This document shows positions 10,929 to 18,269 of a DNA stretch of 33,632 bases, in pieces. This stretch comes from Actinomycetota bacterium (GTDB lineage: Bacteria; Actinomycetota; Actinomycetes; S36-B12; UBA5976). The DNA is taken from the NCBI GenBank assembly GCA_009885745.1, contig VFKC01000007.1, forward strand, positions 1 to 33,632, in the 5' to 3' direction. The translations under genes and the position numbers were made by a program. The notes under the pieces were generated by a model. It was not told the origin of the DNA and searched no databases. It worked only from the letters and a program-made list of their open reading frames with translations. Each line of letters opens with the position of its first letter. Position 1 is the first letter of the stretch.

Positions 10929-12053
10929 ATGCGCAAATTCTTTTTGATGTGTTCAATTTCGGTCCTGGTGGCATCAGTTTTCTCGCAACAACTAGCCCAA
11001 GCATCAGTCAAGACCATCAAGTCTCCACGAGTGCTAAATGTTGTAACCACAGGAGACCTGCTATTACATGAGCGCATGTGGACCCAGGCGCGAACTGATG
11101 GCAAAAATGGGAATTGGGATTTCTTTCCACAACTCTCGGGCGTCGGTTCAATCATTAAAAAATCTGATTTGGCGCTATGCCATCTAGAAACTCCCCTTGC
11201 AAAGTTGGGCGGGAAATATACGGGCTATCCAGTATTTCGCTCCCCACCGCAAATCGTTTCTGCCGTAAAGCGACTTGGCTTTGACATGTGCGATCAGACT
11301 TCTAATCATTCTTTTGATGATGGCGAAGCTGGAGTAAAAAGAACGATTGATTTTCTAGATGCTGCCGGCATTGCACACACTGGCACATACAAATCTGAAG
11401 CAGCCTCAAAGAAACCACTCATCATGACCGTACAAAGTTCTGCTGGTCCGGTAAAAGTAGGAATCATTGCATTTACATATGGCTTCAATGGATTCCCCTA
11501 CCCAAATGATCACAAATGGCTGGCAAACCAGACAAGTTTCTTAAAAGTCGCTCAAGCGGCTAAGGCTTGTCGTGATGCGGGCGCTGAAGTTGTAATTGCA
11601 AAAATGCATTGGGGTAGTGAATACGCCAACTACCCAAATAGCAATCAACTCTTATTGGCAAACAAAATTGCCAGAACGGGACTTGTGGATCTTATTGACG
11701 GAGACCACACGCACTCGGTCGAGCCGATTCAAAAGATTGGTCGGATGTGGGTTGCCTACAGCCATGGAAATTTGGTGGCTTCACAGCCAGACCCTGAATC
11801 TGTGCAATACGAAGGGGTCATCAATCGCTGGACCTTTACCGAGCAACCAAACCATCGATTCATTGTGACTAAAGCGGAATATGCCCCGACTCTCATCACA
11901 CGTAATTTCCCAGTGCGTGTTCTTGATGTCAATCGCGCATTAAAGACAGGTCGTTGGGTGAGCACAAATAAGACCAGACTCAAAAAGGCGATGGAACGCA
12001 CATCAAAGACGATTAAGTCGATGGGTGCCAAAGTCAGTTTGATTCAGGAGTAA
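10929..12053 (+). CDS. CapA family metallophosphoesterase (PGA_cap), secreted or anchored
   Basis: N-terminal signal MRKFFLMCSISVLVASVFSQQLAQA; VVTTGDLLLHERM, TSNHSFDDGEAGVKRTIDFLDAAGIAHTG, AKMHWGSEY, DGDHTHSVEP. Start set at ATG 10929 (GATAAT 6 nt upstream) rather than GTG 10890. Confidence 0.85.
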   Translation: MRKFFLMCSISVLVASVFSQQLAQASVKTIKSPRVLNVVTTGDLLLHERMWTQARTDGKNGNWDFFPQLSGVGSIIKKSDLALCHLETPLAKLGGKYTGYPVFRSPPQIVSAVKRLGFDMCDQTSNHSFDDGEAGVKRTIDFLDAAGIAHTGTYKSEAASKKPLIMTVQSSAGPVKVGIIAFTYGFNGFPYPNDHKWLANQTSFLKVAQAAKACRDAGAEVVIAKMHWGSEYANYPNSNQLLLANKIARTGLVDLIDGDHTHSVEPIQKIGRMWVAYSHGNLVASQPDPESVQYEGVINRWTFTEQPNHRFIVTKAEYAPTLITRNFPVRVLDVNRALKTGRWVSTNKTRLKKAMERTSKTIKSMGAKVSLIQE

Positions 12054-12556
12054 CGAACAGGGACTTGGATTTCATTTCGTCGCAAAAACCAAGGCGTCCA
12101 TGGTGGGTCAAATCTTGCGAATCTTGCTTCACCATCTTGAACTAGTCCATCTTTGTTCAAACCATCAAGAAGTATCCCAAGTTTGGCTAGATATGATTGC
12201 TTCGTCCAACGACCAGAAAATCTATGAACCGCGACGAGCTCACTGGGTATCACGTTTAATGAAACATTTTGATCTGATGGATCTGGTAGATCGGTTCGCG
12301 AATAGTTGCTGGGCATAACAAAACTAACCACATGCTCGTCACCACGAGGGTGCTGAATCACGGGTGCAGTCATCGCAACTTTTGCGCCCGCATTATTTCG
12401 ACCACTGATAAATGCAATTAATGGGCCAAAACCTCGACTACCGGCACTTTCAAATTCACCAGTCACTGCTACCTGTGCTAACACGCACTGGGCATACTCG
12501 CGTACTTCATAGCCATCAAATCTCTTAACAACTTCGAATTTTTGTTCTTCAGTCAT
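12044..12556 (-). CDS. SOUL heme-binding family protein
   Basis: FEVVKRFDGYEVREYAQCVLAQV, RGFGPLIAFISGRNNAGAKVAMTAPVIQ, VSFVMPSNYS. Confidence 0.9.
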   Translation of the reverse strand: MTEEQKFEVVKRFDGYEVREYAQCVLAQVAVTGEFESAGSRGFGPLIAFISGRNNAGAKVAMTAPVIQHPRGDEHVVSFVMPSNYSRTDLPDPSDQNVSLNVIPSELVAVHRFSGRWTKQSYLAKLGILLDGLNKDGLVQDGEARFARFDPPWTPWFLRRNEIQVPVRYS

Positions 12557-12632: not shown

Positions 12633-13292
12633 CTAGTCGTTGGAAACATCCAACTCGATAAGACCGAAGTCATAGCCTCGACGTCGATAGAGCACACTGC
12701 ATTTTTGCGTGTCAACGTTACTAAACAAATAAAAATCGTGGCCGACTAATTCCATTGCCTCTACCGCTTGCTCAACCGTTATAGCCAAACTTTCAATTTG
12801 TTTTGTTCGCACTACAAGCGGACCACTCAGTAAGACGATTTCGCCGTCCACATTGTCGCCGTCCACATTGTCGCCGACCTCGGGAGTAACTTGCTCTTGG
12901 TCAAGAACGGATTCCACTATTTCGTGCTTTGGTTGAATCCGTCGATGTTCTACTGACTTTGCTTTGTCATGCATTCGACGGAGACGTTCCTGAAGTCGTT
13001 CATAGGCCAAATCCAGAGCTGTGTATTTATCAGAGGCATGAGCTTCGGCTCGCAGTACTGGTCCCTCTCCATTGCAGGTGAGTTCTACTTCATATGCACG
13101 ATCGTGTTGACGAGGATTTGCCTCGTGAGAAACTTCAACATCTACATGCCGAAACGGCATTGCAAATCGGTTTATTTTAGACACCTTTTCCACTGCATGT
13201 TCTCGGAATCTGGATGACACATTGGCATGACGCCCGCGAACAACTATGGAAAGTACGTTGTCGCCGAATGTGATATTTGCTGGTGTTGTCAT
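12633..13292 (-). CDS. hpf: Ribosome hibernation-promoting factor, long form (HPF/RaiA)
   Basis: N-terminal S30AE/RaiA domain (SIVVRGRHANVSSRFREHAVEKVSKINRF) and C-terminal dimerisation domain (LVVRTKQIESLAITVEQAVEAMELVGHDFYLFSNVDTQKCSVLYRRRGYDFGLIEL); SD GAAAGGA before ATG. Confidence 0.94.
   Translation of the reverse strand: MTTPANITFGDNVLSIVVRGRHANVSSRFREHAVEKVSKINRFAMPFRHVDVEVSHEANPRQHDRAYEVELTCNGEGPVLRAEAHASDKYTALDLAYERLQERLRRMHDKAKSVEHRRIQPKHEIVESVLDQEQVTPEVGDNVDGDNVDGEIVLLSGPLVVRTKQIESLAITVEQAVEAMELVGHDFYLFSNVDTQKCSVLYRRRGYDFGLIELDVSND
12841..12870. repeat. 15-bp tandem duplication inside hpf
   Basis: tcgccgtccacattg x2, then tcgccg; encodes the duplicated linker DNVDGDNVDG. Confidence 0.85.
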
Positions 13293-13329
13293 TTTTTATT
13301 TCCTTTCATAGCAGGGATATTTTTAGGTA

Positions 13330-13603
13330 AAAAGTTAATGACGCCCACCCAGCCGACCTGATTTTCGACCCCACAATCGCCTACAGAAGTCCTCGCAGCG
13401 TCAATCGCCACTAATAACCTTCTCTTGGATCGTTGGCCATCTGGACCAACGGCAAGGTAGGACTTACTTCTAAGCCGCACCGTGATCGAACGACCAAAAG
13501 TCGCCTTACGTGGACCGCTTAGCCTGCGGCTGGCATCGGCTTGTAGTAGACCAACTCCAAAGAGTCGCCCTACTACGCAATCACGGACCCGGGTGGGCGC
13601 CAT
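13330..13603 (-). ncRNA. raiA RNA: raiA-motif structured RNA (leader of hpf/raiA)
   Basis: Lies between comF and hpf. Closing stem GCGCCCACCC (13600-13591) with GGGUGGGCGU (13350-13341), 10 bp including one G-U. Hairpins: GUAGUAG/CUACUAC (13576-13570 with 13549-13543); CGUUGGUC-CAGAU-GGCCAACG (13451-13431); GGCUUA-GAAG-UAAGUC. Promoter TAGCGT at 13615-13610 places the 5' end at about 13603. Confidence 0.8.
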
Positions 13604-13609
13604 ACCTAC

Positions 13610-13615
13610 ACGCTA
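13610..13615 (-). promoter_or_regulatory. -10 element of the raiA RNA / hpf transcript
   Basis: TAGCGT on the minus strand, 6 nt upstream of A13603; identical hexamer to the one serving the 1330 gene. Confidence 0.5.
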
Positions 13616-13627
13616 ATGCCTCTCGGT

Positions 13628-14251
13628 TCATCCACATATAGAAATCCCAAAAACTTTTTGAGCACCTGCGATTTTCAGTGCTTTAGCCGCTTCGTTAAGT
13701 GTTGAACCAGTTGTAACAACATCATCAAGAATTACTACAGTCCCAGAAATTCTCGCAGTAGCACTAAATGCATCTTGCAAATTCTGCTGTCTTTTTATGG
13801 CGTCAAGTCCAACTTGATCTTGCACGACTCTATTTAGTTTCAGTATTGGATTGATGGAGACATCTCTGTGGCCAAGATTGCGCAACTCTCTTTGTAAACC
13901 TTGCGATAACTTCAAAATAGTGTCTGAGCCGCGCACTCGTATTTTTTCGATTGCGCTTGGAATAGGGACTATCGCTGCCGGAAGATTAGCGACTGGCAAA
14001 ATCTGCCAGGCTACTGCCATCGCTTTAACTAACGCGGGCATTGCTCGGGCATCGCCTTCTTTTATCCCTAATAACGCCGAGCGAAGCCATCCTGAGTAAT
14101 TACCCGCACAGGCAACTGTAGAAATATACTCGAATGTATTTCTTTCGTGCGGTCTCAACTTAGTTATACATGACGGGCACAGAATGTGACCAAGTTTTTT
14201 GCATCCACAACATGTCGATGGGAAAATTAAATTTACAAAGTCGTTTAACAT
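13628..14251 (-). CDS. comF: ComF family protein / phosphoribosyltransferase
   Basis: N-terminal CCGCKKLGHILCPSC zinc motif; C-terminal PRT motif VVILDDVVTTGSTLNEAAKAL. Confidence 0.9.
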   Translation of the reverse strand: MLNDFVNLIFPSTCCGCKKLGHILCPSCITKLRPHERNTFEYISTVACAGNYSGWLRSALLGIKEGDARAMPALVKAMAVAWQILPVANLPAAIVPIPSAIEKIRVRGSDTILKLSQGLQRELRNLGHRDVSINPILKLNRVVQDQVGLDAIKRQQNLQDAFSATARISGTVVILDDVVTTGSTLNEAAKALKIAGAQKVFGISICG

Positions 14252-14323
14252 CTAGCCATTGCAACACTGCACTTCAACCAAGTAAATAAATTAAAATAAT
14301 CTGGTGAAAAATTTAGGTTGGGT

Positions 14324-16033
14324 CTAACGAGTGAAGAACGGTGCTTGACCTTCTGCAATCTTTTTCCATGCACCTACTTCTTTGGTTATCACATATTCAC
14401 TTGTCCCATCGACAATTGAAAGGACCACAAGCCCTCGTGAATTGACCGCAAGATGCTGGGCGCCAATAGGGACAACTTTGGAATCGGTGTAACCATCTGC
14501 CGTTGAAACTGTAAACAATTGATCTACAGCAGTGTCTATTCTGCCCAGCACGACTAGTTTATTTTCAGATTGCCACGCTATGTCGCGCACGGTATTTATG
14601 CTCTGTTCTACGCGATGGATGCCGATAATCTGCGACACTCCATTAGTCGAGTCCAACATTCCAGCAGCGATAAAATCTTGCGAACCGTAAGTGAAGATTA
14701 ATGCAACCTGAACCCCATCAGGGGCAATCGCAATTTTGCGAATCTGACTTTCATCGCCCACATTATTGTAGGCAACATATACCTGACGGTATTTCCCATT
14801 TGCTGAATATCTCGCAACTCCGCGACCGTAATCTGCCACGTAAACATTTTTCTTTAAGTCCCATGTTGGTCTTGATAATGACTCACCTCGGGCTATTAGC
14901 TTGAATCTGCGGGTATTCTCATTGGCGATAAATAGTTTTTTAGAATCACCAGAAACAGCAGACACGTGCGCACCTGAAAGAGAGTTTGCAACTTCTCCAA
15001 TACTTGTTTCATCAGCAAGTGCCAATGTCCAAATTTTCTTTTCACCTTGATCGGCATCAGAATTAACTCCACTTGTGCCTACAACTACATTCAAGACATT
15101 TGCCTGTGATGCATCTAGCGGCAGGAAGTCAACAAGATCAGCCCGAGACATTTCCGCTGGAAAACCTGGAGTCGTTAATTGTTGACCTGAAACGGTAATA
15201 CGAACTCGATTAACTAATGGTAGAGATGTTAACGTCGATACAATTTGAGCGACTAAAGCCTTACGGGCCGTGACCGAAGCACCAAGCACATCTGAGGTTA
15301 AATCGACTTTGGCTAGGCCATTTACAATCGGCACCGCACCAAAAGTCAGCGCAGTATCTCTCGGGATTGCACTGGCTTGGACGCTGGACAACATGCTTCT
15401 GGGACCGAGTAACAATGTTTCCATCAGTTTGGTAGCCGCCCCAGCATTACCCTGAGCGACCAAAATTGAATCTGGAATTAGAGTTTTTAACTGATGATCT
15501 AGAAAATAAACCGGGTAGCCGCGAAATGACCGAACAGCATCACTTTGGGTCAAGAACACTCCATCGCGAAGTTGGCTGATTCTCCATTCACCGTCATCGT
15601 TTTGGGTCAAACCAAAATACTCTTGCAGCTGTACCGATGGCTCTGCTATTTCCAGATGACCAGACTCGTTCGCCGAGCTAATCAACGGTGCAGAAAAAAT
15701 AACACCGCCGACTTCGTTACTCACTGACAATCTTGTTTCGTCAAAAACTGCAATGCCCGCATCAGAATCCCAAGATTGCGCAATTGACCTAGCGAGATAT
15801 TGGCGGGCAATTGAATATCCATTACTTGAATCCGCACAAGCCTGAAAGAAACTCTTAACAAGTTCTTCCGGGCTCGCCCCACGCGCTGGCGGTCTAGCAA
15901 TGACTCGGATTAGCTGTGAGTCAGGTGCGGTCGCAACTGTGTCATCAATTTGTACTCTTGAACTTTGTGGAATGTTGGCGCAACCAGTAAATGCAAATAT
16001 GCCAATTAATATGAACAAAACTGATTTACGCAT
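14324..16033 (-). CDS. lpqB: Lipoprotein LpqB (GerMN and beta-propeller domains)
   Basis: MRKSVLFILIGIFAFTGCANIP lipobox; GerMN-like region; immediately downstream of mtrAB. Start set at ATG 16033, overlapping the mtrB end. Confidence 0.92.
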   Translation of the reverse strand: MRKSVLFILIGIFAFTGCANIPQSSRVQIDDTVATAPDSQLIRVIARPPARGASPEELVKSFFQACADSSNGYSIARQYLARSIAQSWDSDAGIAVFDETRLSVSNEVGGVIFSAPLISSANESGHLEIAEPSVQLQEYFGLTQNDDGEWRISQLRDGVFLTQSDAVRSFRGYPVYFLDHQLKTLIPDSILVAQGNAGAATKLMETLLLGPRSMLSSVQASAIPRDTALTFGAVPIVNGLAKVDLTSDVLGASVTARKALVAQIVSTLTSLPLVNRVRITVSGQQLTTPGFPAEMSRADLVDFLPLDASQANVLNVVVGTSGVNSDADQGEKKIWTLALADETSIGEVANSLSGAHVSAVSGDSKKLFIANENTRRFKLIARGESLSRPTWDLKKNVYVADYGRGVARYSANGKYRQVYVAYNNVGDESQIRKIAIAPDGVQVALIFTYGSQDFIAAGMLDSTNGVSQIIGIHRVEQSINTVRDIAWQSENKLVVLGRIDTAVDQLFTVSTADGYTDSKVVPIGAQHLAVNSRGLVVLSIVDGTSEYVITKEVGAWKKIAEGQAPFFTR

Positions 16034-17588
16034 CAACATCACTCGGTTTAATCGGGGCAGTCGTGTACGGGGCATTAACTCTTCGCGGCAGGGTCAAGAC
16101 GAATTGTGCACCCTTGTTTGGGCGACCCCAGACCTTGATATCCCCGCCATGCAATTGAGCATCTTCCATCGAGATAGAAAGGCCAAGACCACTTCCGCCC
16201 AAGGTGCGAGCTCGTGATGGATCGGCACGCCAAAATCTGCCAAAAACTCGTTCTTGATCTTCTTCAGACAAACCCTGACCACTGTCGCGCACACTTATAG
16301 ACACTGCTTCATCGCTGGATCGTAGCTTCACCACAACGGGCTTACCTTCGGAATGTTCGATTGCATTCGCGACAAGGTTGCGAATGATACGCCCGATTCT
16401 TCGCGAGTCTCCCTCGATAAAGGCGTAGGTCTGAGTTGAATCAAACGAGAGATATGTTTCATGAGCGGTTGCAATTCGCGCATCATTTTCAACGATGTCT
16501 CGAGTCAGTGCGACTAGATCAATAGTGGAAGCTTCCAGGCCGCCCGCGCCTGCATCAAAACGACTAATCTCAAGCAAATCATTGAGGAGATGAAAAAATC
16601 TTTCAACCTGTCGCTGTAAAAGTTCAGCGCATCGCGCTGTTTCTGGATCAAATTTGCTGCGTGCGTTATAGATCAATTCACTAGCCATTCGAACTGTTGT
16701 CAATGGCGTACGAAGTTCGTGAGAAACATCAGATACGAACTGCTGTTGCACTAATGAGAGTGTCTCCAGACGGGTGATTTGGCTTTGTAAACTATCGGCC
16801 ATCTTGTTGAAGGACCCGGCAAGCCGCGCCATGTCATCTTCACCATGCACATTGAGTCGGCTGCCCAGATCACCCTCTGCGAATTCTTCGGCAACCTCAG
16901 CCACTCGACGAACAGGCTCTGTGACCCGAGCTGTGACAAACATCGCCAAAACCACAAGCCCAACCAATAAAGCCAAACCGGTTACCGCTACGCCTCTTCG
17001 GACAAGGTCTACAGAATGCTGCTCGTTGGCAAGTGGGAATAATAAGAAAAGTTCGTATTGACCAACATTGGGAACATTGACTGTGTTACCCACAATAATT
17101 CCCGGTACTTGGGTTCCATCCTCGTAAGTTATCTTTGCGTATACCCAAGCTTGCTTACGATTTTGTTGCAGTGATTCGCGCAGAGATAACGGGATTGAGG
17201 ACTCAGCGACCAACTTTGTTCCTCGTTGTGGTGCCCCACTAATTGATGGATCACTTAAAAATAAAGCGTCAAATATTCCTGGCGTTCCTGCTCTAATCGC
17301 TAACGCAGTAATGACTGAGTCAACTAAGCGAGTGACATTAGGTTCGCCAACTCCAGTCTCAGTTGCATCAAGAAGATTCTGGATTTCCTGCTGCGCCGAT
17401 GATGCCTCAATGGAAGCTGCCTTTTGTTTGGCATCTAGCAGACCGCCGACAACCTGATTGAGTAGCAACGCACCGACAATGCCAATGACAATCGCGGTAA
17501 CTCCAAGAGTGATTAGCACTAATCGCAATTGCAGATTTCTGCGCCAGACGTTTAACGCCTTTGCCAGGAATAAGGGCAGGTTGGCCAC
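16026..17588 (-). CDS. mtrB: Two-component sensor histidine kinase MtrB
   Basis: HAMP (ARVTEPVRRVAEVAEEFAEGDLGSRL), H-box FVSDVSHELRTPLTTVRMA, N-box NLVANAIEHSEG, G-box GSGLGLSI. Confidence 0.95.
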   Translation of the reverse strand: MANLPLFLAKALNVWRRNLQLRLVLITLGVTAIVIGIVGALLLNQVVGGLLDAKQKAASIEASSAQQEIQNLLDATETGVGEPNVTRLVDSVITALAIRAGTPGIFDALFLSDPSISGAPQRGTKLVAESSIPLSLRESLQQNRKQAWVYAKITYEDGTQVPGIIVGNTVNVPNVGQYELFLLFPLANEQHSVDLVRRGVAVTGLALLVGLVVLAMFVTARVTEPVRRVAEVAEEFAEGDLGSRLNVHGEDDMARLAGSFNKMADSLQSQITRLETLSLVQQQFVSDVSHELRTPLTTVRMASELIYNARSKFDPETARCAELLQRQVERFFHLLNDLLEISRFDAGAGGLEASTIDLVALTRDIVENDARIATAHETYLSFDSTQTYAFIEGDSRRIGRIIRNLVANAIEHSEGKPVVVKLRSSDEAVSISVRDSGQGLSEEDQERVFGRFWRADPSRARTLGGSGLGLSISMEDAQLHGGDIKVWGRPNKGAQFVLTLPRRVNAPYTTAPIKPSDVDA

Positions 17589-17591
17589 GAT

Positions 17592-18269
17592 CTAGTTTGA
17601 TCCGGCCTTGTACCCAACGCCGCGAACTGTCATGACAATTTCAGGATTTTCTGGATCATGTTCGACCTTTGCGCGAAGTCGCTGAACATGCACGTTCACT
17701 AATCGAGTATCAGCCGCGTGACGATATTCCCAGACCTCTTGCAAAAGCGATTCACGAGTGAAGACCTGCCATGGGCGCTTGGCCAATGTGGTTAGCAACT
17801 TGAATTCTAAAACGGTCAAAGGAATGACCTCTTCGCCACGTTTGACGGTGTGACCAGAAGTGTCAATAACCAAGTCGCCAATTTCTATTTCTTTGATTCC
17901 TGTTGGCTCGATTTTGCGCAATCTCGCTCGGATTCTTGCGATAAGTTCAGAACCAACCACTGGCTTTATGAGATAGTCGTCAGCACCGGCTTCAAGCCCA
18001 TTGACGATATCTTGCGAATCACCTCGAGCGGTAAGCATCACAATTGGGACACCGCTTTCGAGCCTAATAGCGCGACAAATTTCAATCCCGTCGCGACCAG
18101 GCAACATCAAGTCAAGCATCAAAAGATCTGGCTTTGCCCGACGGAAGAATTCCAGTGCGCTCAGACCGTCATAACAAATTGCTGTCTCATAGCCCGCACC
18201 ACGAAGACTCATACTGATCAATTCAGCAATGTCTTTCTCATCTTCAACGATAAGAATTCTTTGTGCCAC
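17592..18269 (-). CDS. mtrA: Two-component response regulator MtrA (OmpR/PhoB)
   Basis: ILIVEDEKDIAELI, DLLMLDLMLPGRDGIEICRAIR, C-terminal winged helix ESLLQEVWEYRHAADTRLVNVHVQRLRAKVE; SD AAAGGTAAG. Confidence 0.96.
   Translation of the reverse strand: MAQRILIVEDEKDIAELISMSLRGAGYETAICYDGLSALEFFRRAKPDLLMLDLMLPGRDGIEICRAIRLESGVPIVMLTARGDSQDIVNGLEAGADDYLIKPVVGSELIARIRARLRKIEPTGIKEIEIGDLVIDTSGHTVKRGEEVIPLTVLEFKLLTTLAKRPWQVFTRESLLQEVWEYRHAADTRLVNVHVQRLRAKVEHDPENPEIVMTVRGVGYKAGSN

Follow-up and report, generated by a model that had tools for sequence, protein, structure and literature searches.

In the window, by which we mean the whole 33,632-nt stretch of DNA analyzed here, the gap between comF and hpf carries what is on sequence evidence a genuine raiA-motif (ModT) structured RNA and no protein gene. 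We consider it very probable that this ModT RNA has its own promoter, acts in trans and is no riboswitch of hpf, and serves a core function that operates without HPF or cyclic di-GMP (c-di-GMP). raiA/ModT RNA is present in thousands of species. Here, in an actinobacterial genus with small genomes, the RNA is under clear structural selection, and hpf has apparently been lost at least 2 times. Genomes without hpf and without both c-di-GMP domain families remove 2 popular explanations of raiA/ModT RNA.

Identity and structure of the RNA

In a scan of the window against all Rfam families (cmscan), a curated cut-off was exceeded only once, by RF03072 (raiA), which matches 13344–13597 on the minus strand and covers the full model (1–209) with 150.8 bits and an E value of 7.5e-38. 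The gathering score of this family, its curated cut-off, is 101.3 bits. The initial annotation had claimed a member of the raiA family at this place and had named the covariance-model search beforehand; the match bears the claim out. The genome to which the window belongs has no second copy of the RNA; in genomes counted as RNA-negative, raiA matches at E values up to 10 scored at most 13.8 bits and were taken as noise. The RNA spans 254 nt (13344–13597), or 13339–13602 if the full closing helix is counted. The interval first proposed, 13330–13615, is slightly generous, yet it takes in a −10-like box at 13615–13610. When folded, positions 13339–13604 (minus strand) reach −118.2 kcal/mol (z = −4.5), a stability equaled by none of 200 dinucleotide shuffles.

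The domain had been placed in the comF–hpf gap, and these 2 genes do flank it. Upstream lies comF (13628–14251, minus strand; phosphoribosyltransferase domain, Pfam PF00156), and downstream lies a long-form hpf (12633–13292, minus strand) with an S30AE and a C-terminal domain (PF02482 and PF16321). Both are usual neighbors of the raiA motif. The RNA and hpf share a strand, with 51 nt between the end of the RNA and the hpf start codon. The comF gene is part of an mtrA-mtrB-lpqB-comF-like run (13628–18269, minus strand) of response regulator, histidine kinase, LpqB lipoprotein, and ComF genes, the usual actinobacterial setting. Directly after hpf follows a gene for a SOUL heme-binding protein (12044–12556, minus strand; PF04832). 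A comF motif check matched 23 of 35 loci, with a pattern too strict for high-G+C loci, and we do not count its misses as evidence that comF is absent there.

Strong evidence for the structure comes from covariation among 27 full loci from related genomes, 62–99% identical to the window. In their alignment, a structure of 77 pairs, counted with a P8 register shifted from the better one found by RNAalifold, keeps 93.0% of 2,069 cells paired, and 38 of the 77 pairs show double changes. On each of 5 covariation measures, all 500 shuffles fall short of the observed value, and slid controls, in which partners are moved by 1–3 columns, attain a pairing of only 32–45%. RNAalifold independently finds 36 of 72 pairs to covary. 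The signal is strongest in P2 and P7, and the raiA-motif helices P1, P3, and P5–P8 are conserved and covary here. Where compensatory changes had been set against codon-like variation as the test of an RNA, the homologous loci show compensatory base-pair changes without third-position bias.

All helices lie on the minus strand. The 10-bp helix described initially, GCGCCCACCC (13600–13591) with GGGUGGGCGU (13350–13341), is real and extends to the 14 pairs of the closing helix P1 (13602–13589 with 13352–13339), where 9 pairs show double changes. Inner P1 (CCG + UGAUU, 13579–13586) pairs with 13353–13355 and 13359–13363; all of its cells are paired (100%), and one pair covaries as A-U/G-C. The hairpins reported within the domain are likewise confirmed as P2, P5, and P7. 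P2 (13543–13576), which the cmscan alignment shows as inserted with respect to the Rfam model, has double changes in 6 of 6 outer pairs; P5 (13489–13505) has 87% of cells paired and 2 pairs with double changes; and P7 (13424–13456) has double changes in 9 of 10 pairs. The P3a/P3b stem-loop (13514–13540) changes from GCCG/CGGU to ACUG/CAGU in one locus (L025), with 100% of its pairs kept. Its loop, AGCCGCA (13531–13525), forms one side of the pseudoknot pk-1, and UGCGGCU (13473–13479) supplies the other through 7 pairs with 13525–13531. These are 100% paired across the 27 loci, with one double change from A-U to G-C (L004), and the pk-1 seen by cryo-EM also has 7 pairs (PMC11751092). P4 (CCAC 13510–13513 with GUGG 13371–13374) is invariant in 27 of 27 loci; it is compatible with pairing and presents no variation on which covariation could act. 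The 5′ arm of P6 (13457–13461) pairs with 13380–13384, fully (100%) and with double changes in 2 pairs. In the RNAalifold register, the P8 stem-loop (13387–13420) pairs AGGU 13420–13417 with ACUU 13390–13387, and both sides of its outer pair have changed in 15 of 27 sequences.

The initial account of the raiA family understated how well it has been studied, as knock-outs and cryo-EM structures have been published (PMC11706538, PMC11751092, PMC12286853). The RNA shares with RF03072 its full-length match, the P1–P8 layout, the 7-pair pk-1, and comF and hpf (raiA) as neighbors. It differs in its long P2 insert, and its relatives often have no hpf downstream, in genomes that may lack hpf, GGDEF, and EAL. 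The C. acetobutylicum raiA RNA (PDB 9CXF, 9ELY) has the same helices and the same loop-to-junction 7-pair pk-1 (PMC11751092), but it measures about 210 nt against 254 nt in the window, whose organism, judged by lineage, is probably no spore former. C. difficile ModT is its own transcription unit, and its short form ends just after P1, at the place of a U-rich tract in the window's genus (PMC11706538). Unlike the window's RNA, it has no P2, and it affects c-di-GMP levels, whereas the enzymes for c-di-GMP are missing from the window's genome.

The overlapping reading frame

An open reading frame (ORF) of 104 codons (13289–13603, minus strand) runs over the RNA. It had been called spurious, and we agree: across the 27 loci, the frame is open in 13 and broken by stops in 14, and it has no Pfam match. 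Indels in P2, P5, P7, and P8 shift the frame among relatives, and even the conserved 3′ core, GTGGGGTCGAA, is read in 2 different frames among the open loci (8 vs 5). Where the window differs from its relatives, the changes fall about equally on the 3 codon positions; between 2 of the loci (L001 vs L004), they number 11, 10, and 10 at codon positions 1, 2, and 3, with no third-position excess.

Leaderless mRNAs occur in actinobacteria, and the ORF could be read as a small leaderless protein gene: its ATG at 13603 coincides with the predicted transcription start, and its end overlaps the hpf start (ATGA). The frame is open in the window as it is in the 13 loci, and ATG or GTG stands at the start place in 16 of 27 loci. 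Against this reading are the in-frame stops and frame-shifting indels, the core that is most conserved and yet read in 2 frames, and the lack of both a third-position excess and a Pfam family. The recurrent RTG, moreover, is probably accounted for by a purine start site together with the outer bases of P1. We therefore regard a leaderless gene as extremely improbable, and we reject a protein-coding reading of the ORF on its broken frames, its core in 2 frames, its lack of position bias, and its lack of a Pfam family. At raiA loci, automatic ORF calling is misleading, and so is the Rfam label of cis-regulatory riboswitch.

The RNA without hpf or cyclic di-GMP enzymes

Sequence comparison indicates that the RNA is not tied to hpf. 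The description of the motif as found upstream of raiA/hpf holds in the window; as a functional tie, it does not, since other genes follow the RNA in congeners. In the window's genus, the downstream gene is hpf in 5 loci, an MFS transporter in 11 (Pfam-tested in 2 and assigned by sequence likeness in the remaining ones), and another gene in the rest, and in 3 loci of the genus the downstream genes lie on the opposite strand.

Across the order, we counted genomes that were 90% or more complete and 5% or less contaminated, which gave 80 genomes, mostly metagenome-assembled. The RNA occurs in 22 of them, and hpf (PF02482) is absent from 7 of these 22. Conversely, hpf is present in 15 of 22 RNA-positive vs 18 of 58 RNA-negative genomes; co-occurrence thus exceeds separation, in a comparison that phylogeny confounds. 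Many RNA-positive genomes of the window's genus have no PF02482 match, and one of them (G015) is 98% complete in 10 contigs; another genome (G045, locus L010) has hpf. In G019, comF and hpf stand 166 nt apart with no RNA between them. The RNA is equally well kept with and without hpf: 94.1% of cells are paired, with 30 covarying pairs, in hpf-negative genomes, and 93.5%, with 29, in hpf-positive ones. In a comF tree with several weak forks, the hpf-negative G002 falls inside a supported hpf-positive group, and we conclude from this position that hpf has been lost at least 2 times in the genus. In another genus of the same family (g6; G062, G063; L054, L055, L036, L071), hpf is short, about 102–126 aa, with the N-terminal domain only. 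Within one family, the hibernation factor thus seems to be eroding stepwise, from the long two-domain form of the window to the short form and on to loss. A further hpf frame (G030:C2:9033-9584) contains 2 TGA codons, either as a decaying gene or as a matter of assembly or code.

The c-di-GMP enzymes show a similar separation from the RNA. Domain searches found neither GGDEF nor EAL in the window's genome (G000, 97% complete) or in 6 RNA-positive congeners of at least 90% completeness (G003, G010, G013, G014, G015, G016). The same searches found both domains in 3 other congeners (G002, G008, G022), and hence they work in this genus. Incompleteness of metagenome-assembled genomes might explain a gene missed once but hardly in 7 genomes. 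In G002, G008, and G022 (contigs C35, C145, and C6), the sole GGDEF and EAL domains of each genome are at most about 2 kb apart, and the pair looks like one c-di-GMP module, gained or retained.

These distributions bear on 2 explanations of the RNA, as a cis-regulatory riboswitch that controls hpf translation or transcription and as an RNA that acts mainly through c-di-GMP. The former has in its favor the Rfam type of RF03072 (Cis-reg; riboswitch) and the 51-nt same-strand distance to hpf, with no terminator seen in the window. Its difficulty is that the RNA remains intact in congeners without hpf, before unrelated or oppositely oriented genes; the downstream gene varies within the genus, and no constant association with one regulated gene was found there. 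Trans complementation in 2 clostridia also excludes a cis-only action in those species (PMC11706538). A cis-riboswitch of hpf is disfavored by the persistence of RNA structure in hpf-negative congeners, and we judge it unlikely; a cis effect on hpf is nonetheless possible, on sequence layout, in the window's organism. The c-di-GMP route was proposed for C. difficile, where a modT mutant has changed c-di-GMP levels (PMC11706538), and it gains some plausibility from tested RNA-positive genomes of related families (f3, f7), with 3 to 39 GGDEF proteins each. Yet 7 RNA-bearing genomes, the window's included, have neither GGDEF nor EAL; therefore, the C. difficile link cannot be the universal route. 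As the main mode of action, c-di-GMP is very unlikely, and as the sole route here it is ruled out, barring unrecognized c-di-GMP enzymes in these genomes.

The new constraint on raiA/ModT RNA is that not every bearer can depend on HPF or c-di-GMP for the core role of the RNA. Genomes without hpf, GGDEF, and EAL provide a minimal background in which to seek the core function of the RNA.

Transcription signals and proposed role

The RNA looks, from its flanking sequence, like its own transcription unit. A −10-like box, TAGCGT (13610–13615, minus strand), emerged from locus comparison: a TANNNT element precedes the RNA by 16–19 nt in each of 35 loci, which are related and not 35 independent trials; shuffled upstream sequence gave a mean of 1.89 and a maximum of 8, and an earlier count over 27 loci gave 27 of 27. 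A simple scan of the window returned no full sigma-70 match, and we claim no clear −35 box because that stretch overlaps the coding end of comF. Transcription is predicted to start near 13603–13602, at the outer end of P1.

Directly after P1 stands a U-rich tract (13329–13338, minus strand), a possible 3′ end of a short transcript. Over positions +6 to +13, 18 loci from the window's genus are enriched in T (81 of 144, compared with 42.8 ± 5.0 and a maximum of 59 in 5,000 shuffles). Transcription probably continues past the RNA into hpf, since neither a short-loop terminator nor a full sigma-70 match turned up in a simple scan of the window. C. difficile has a short ModT isoform, and readthrough yields a longer one (PMC11706538); by analogy, the layout of the window would be compatible with such isoforms.

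We propose that a promoter of its own, located between comF and the RNA, would drive transcription of the RNA, which would fold into a compact pseudoknotted structure. As cells leave growth, this stable structured RNA would act in trans, probably as part of a ribonucleoprotein. Work on Clostridia has documented trans action, an abundant transcript, and stationary-phase phenotypes, with trans complementation in C. difficile and C. acetobutylicum (PMC11706538). For the window's RNA, sequence shows that it belongs to the family, what structure it has, that the −10-like box is conserved, and that the RNA persists where hpf, GGDEF, and EAL are gone; expression, trans action, and a protein partner in this organism we infer by analogy. 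An abundant, stable transcript acting in trans is suggested here by the conserved −10-like box. Since the RNA and its promoter-like site persist without hpf and c-di-GMP enzymes, its basic job can probably be done without either, and its core function would need neither HPF nor c-di-GMP.

More tentatively, and at odds that we put well below even, the ancestral role of raiA/ModT RNA may have been a core one in RNA or ribosome metabolism, catalytic or as a ribonucleoprotein, independent of HPF, c-di-GMP, and sporulation. If so, the phenotypes seen in clostridia would arise downstream of that role, and relatives without hpf, GGDEF, and EAL would keep the RNA for the core role alone.

In 3 loci (L014, L017, L019), a long G+C-rich hairpin follows the RNA (for example, AACTCTGCAACGC-ATTC-GCGTTGCAGAGTT) and could be a terminator before the next gene.
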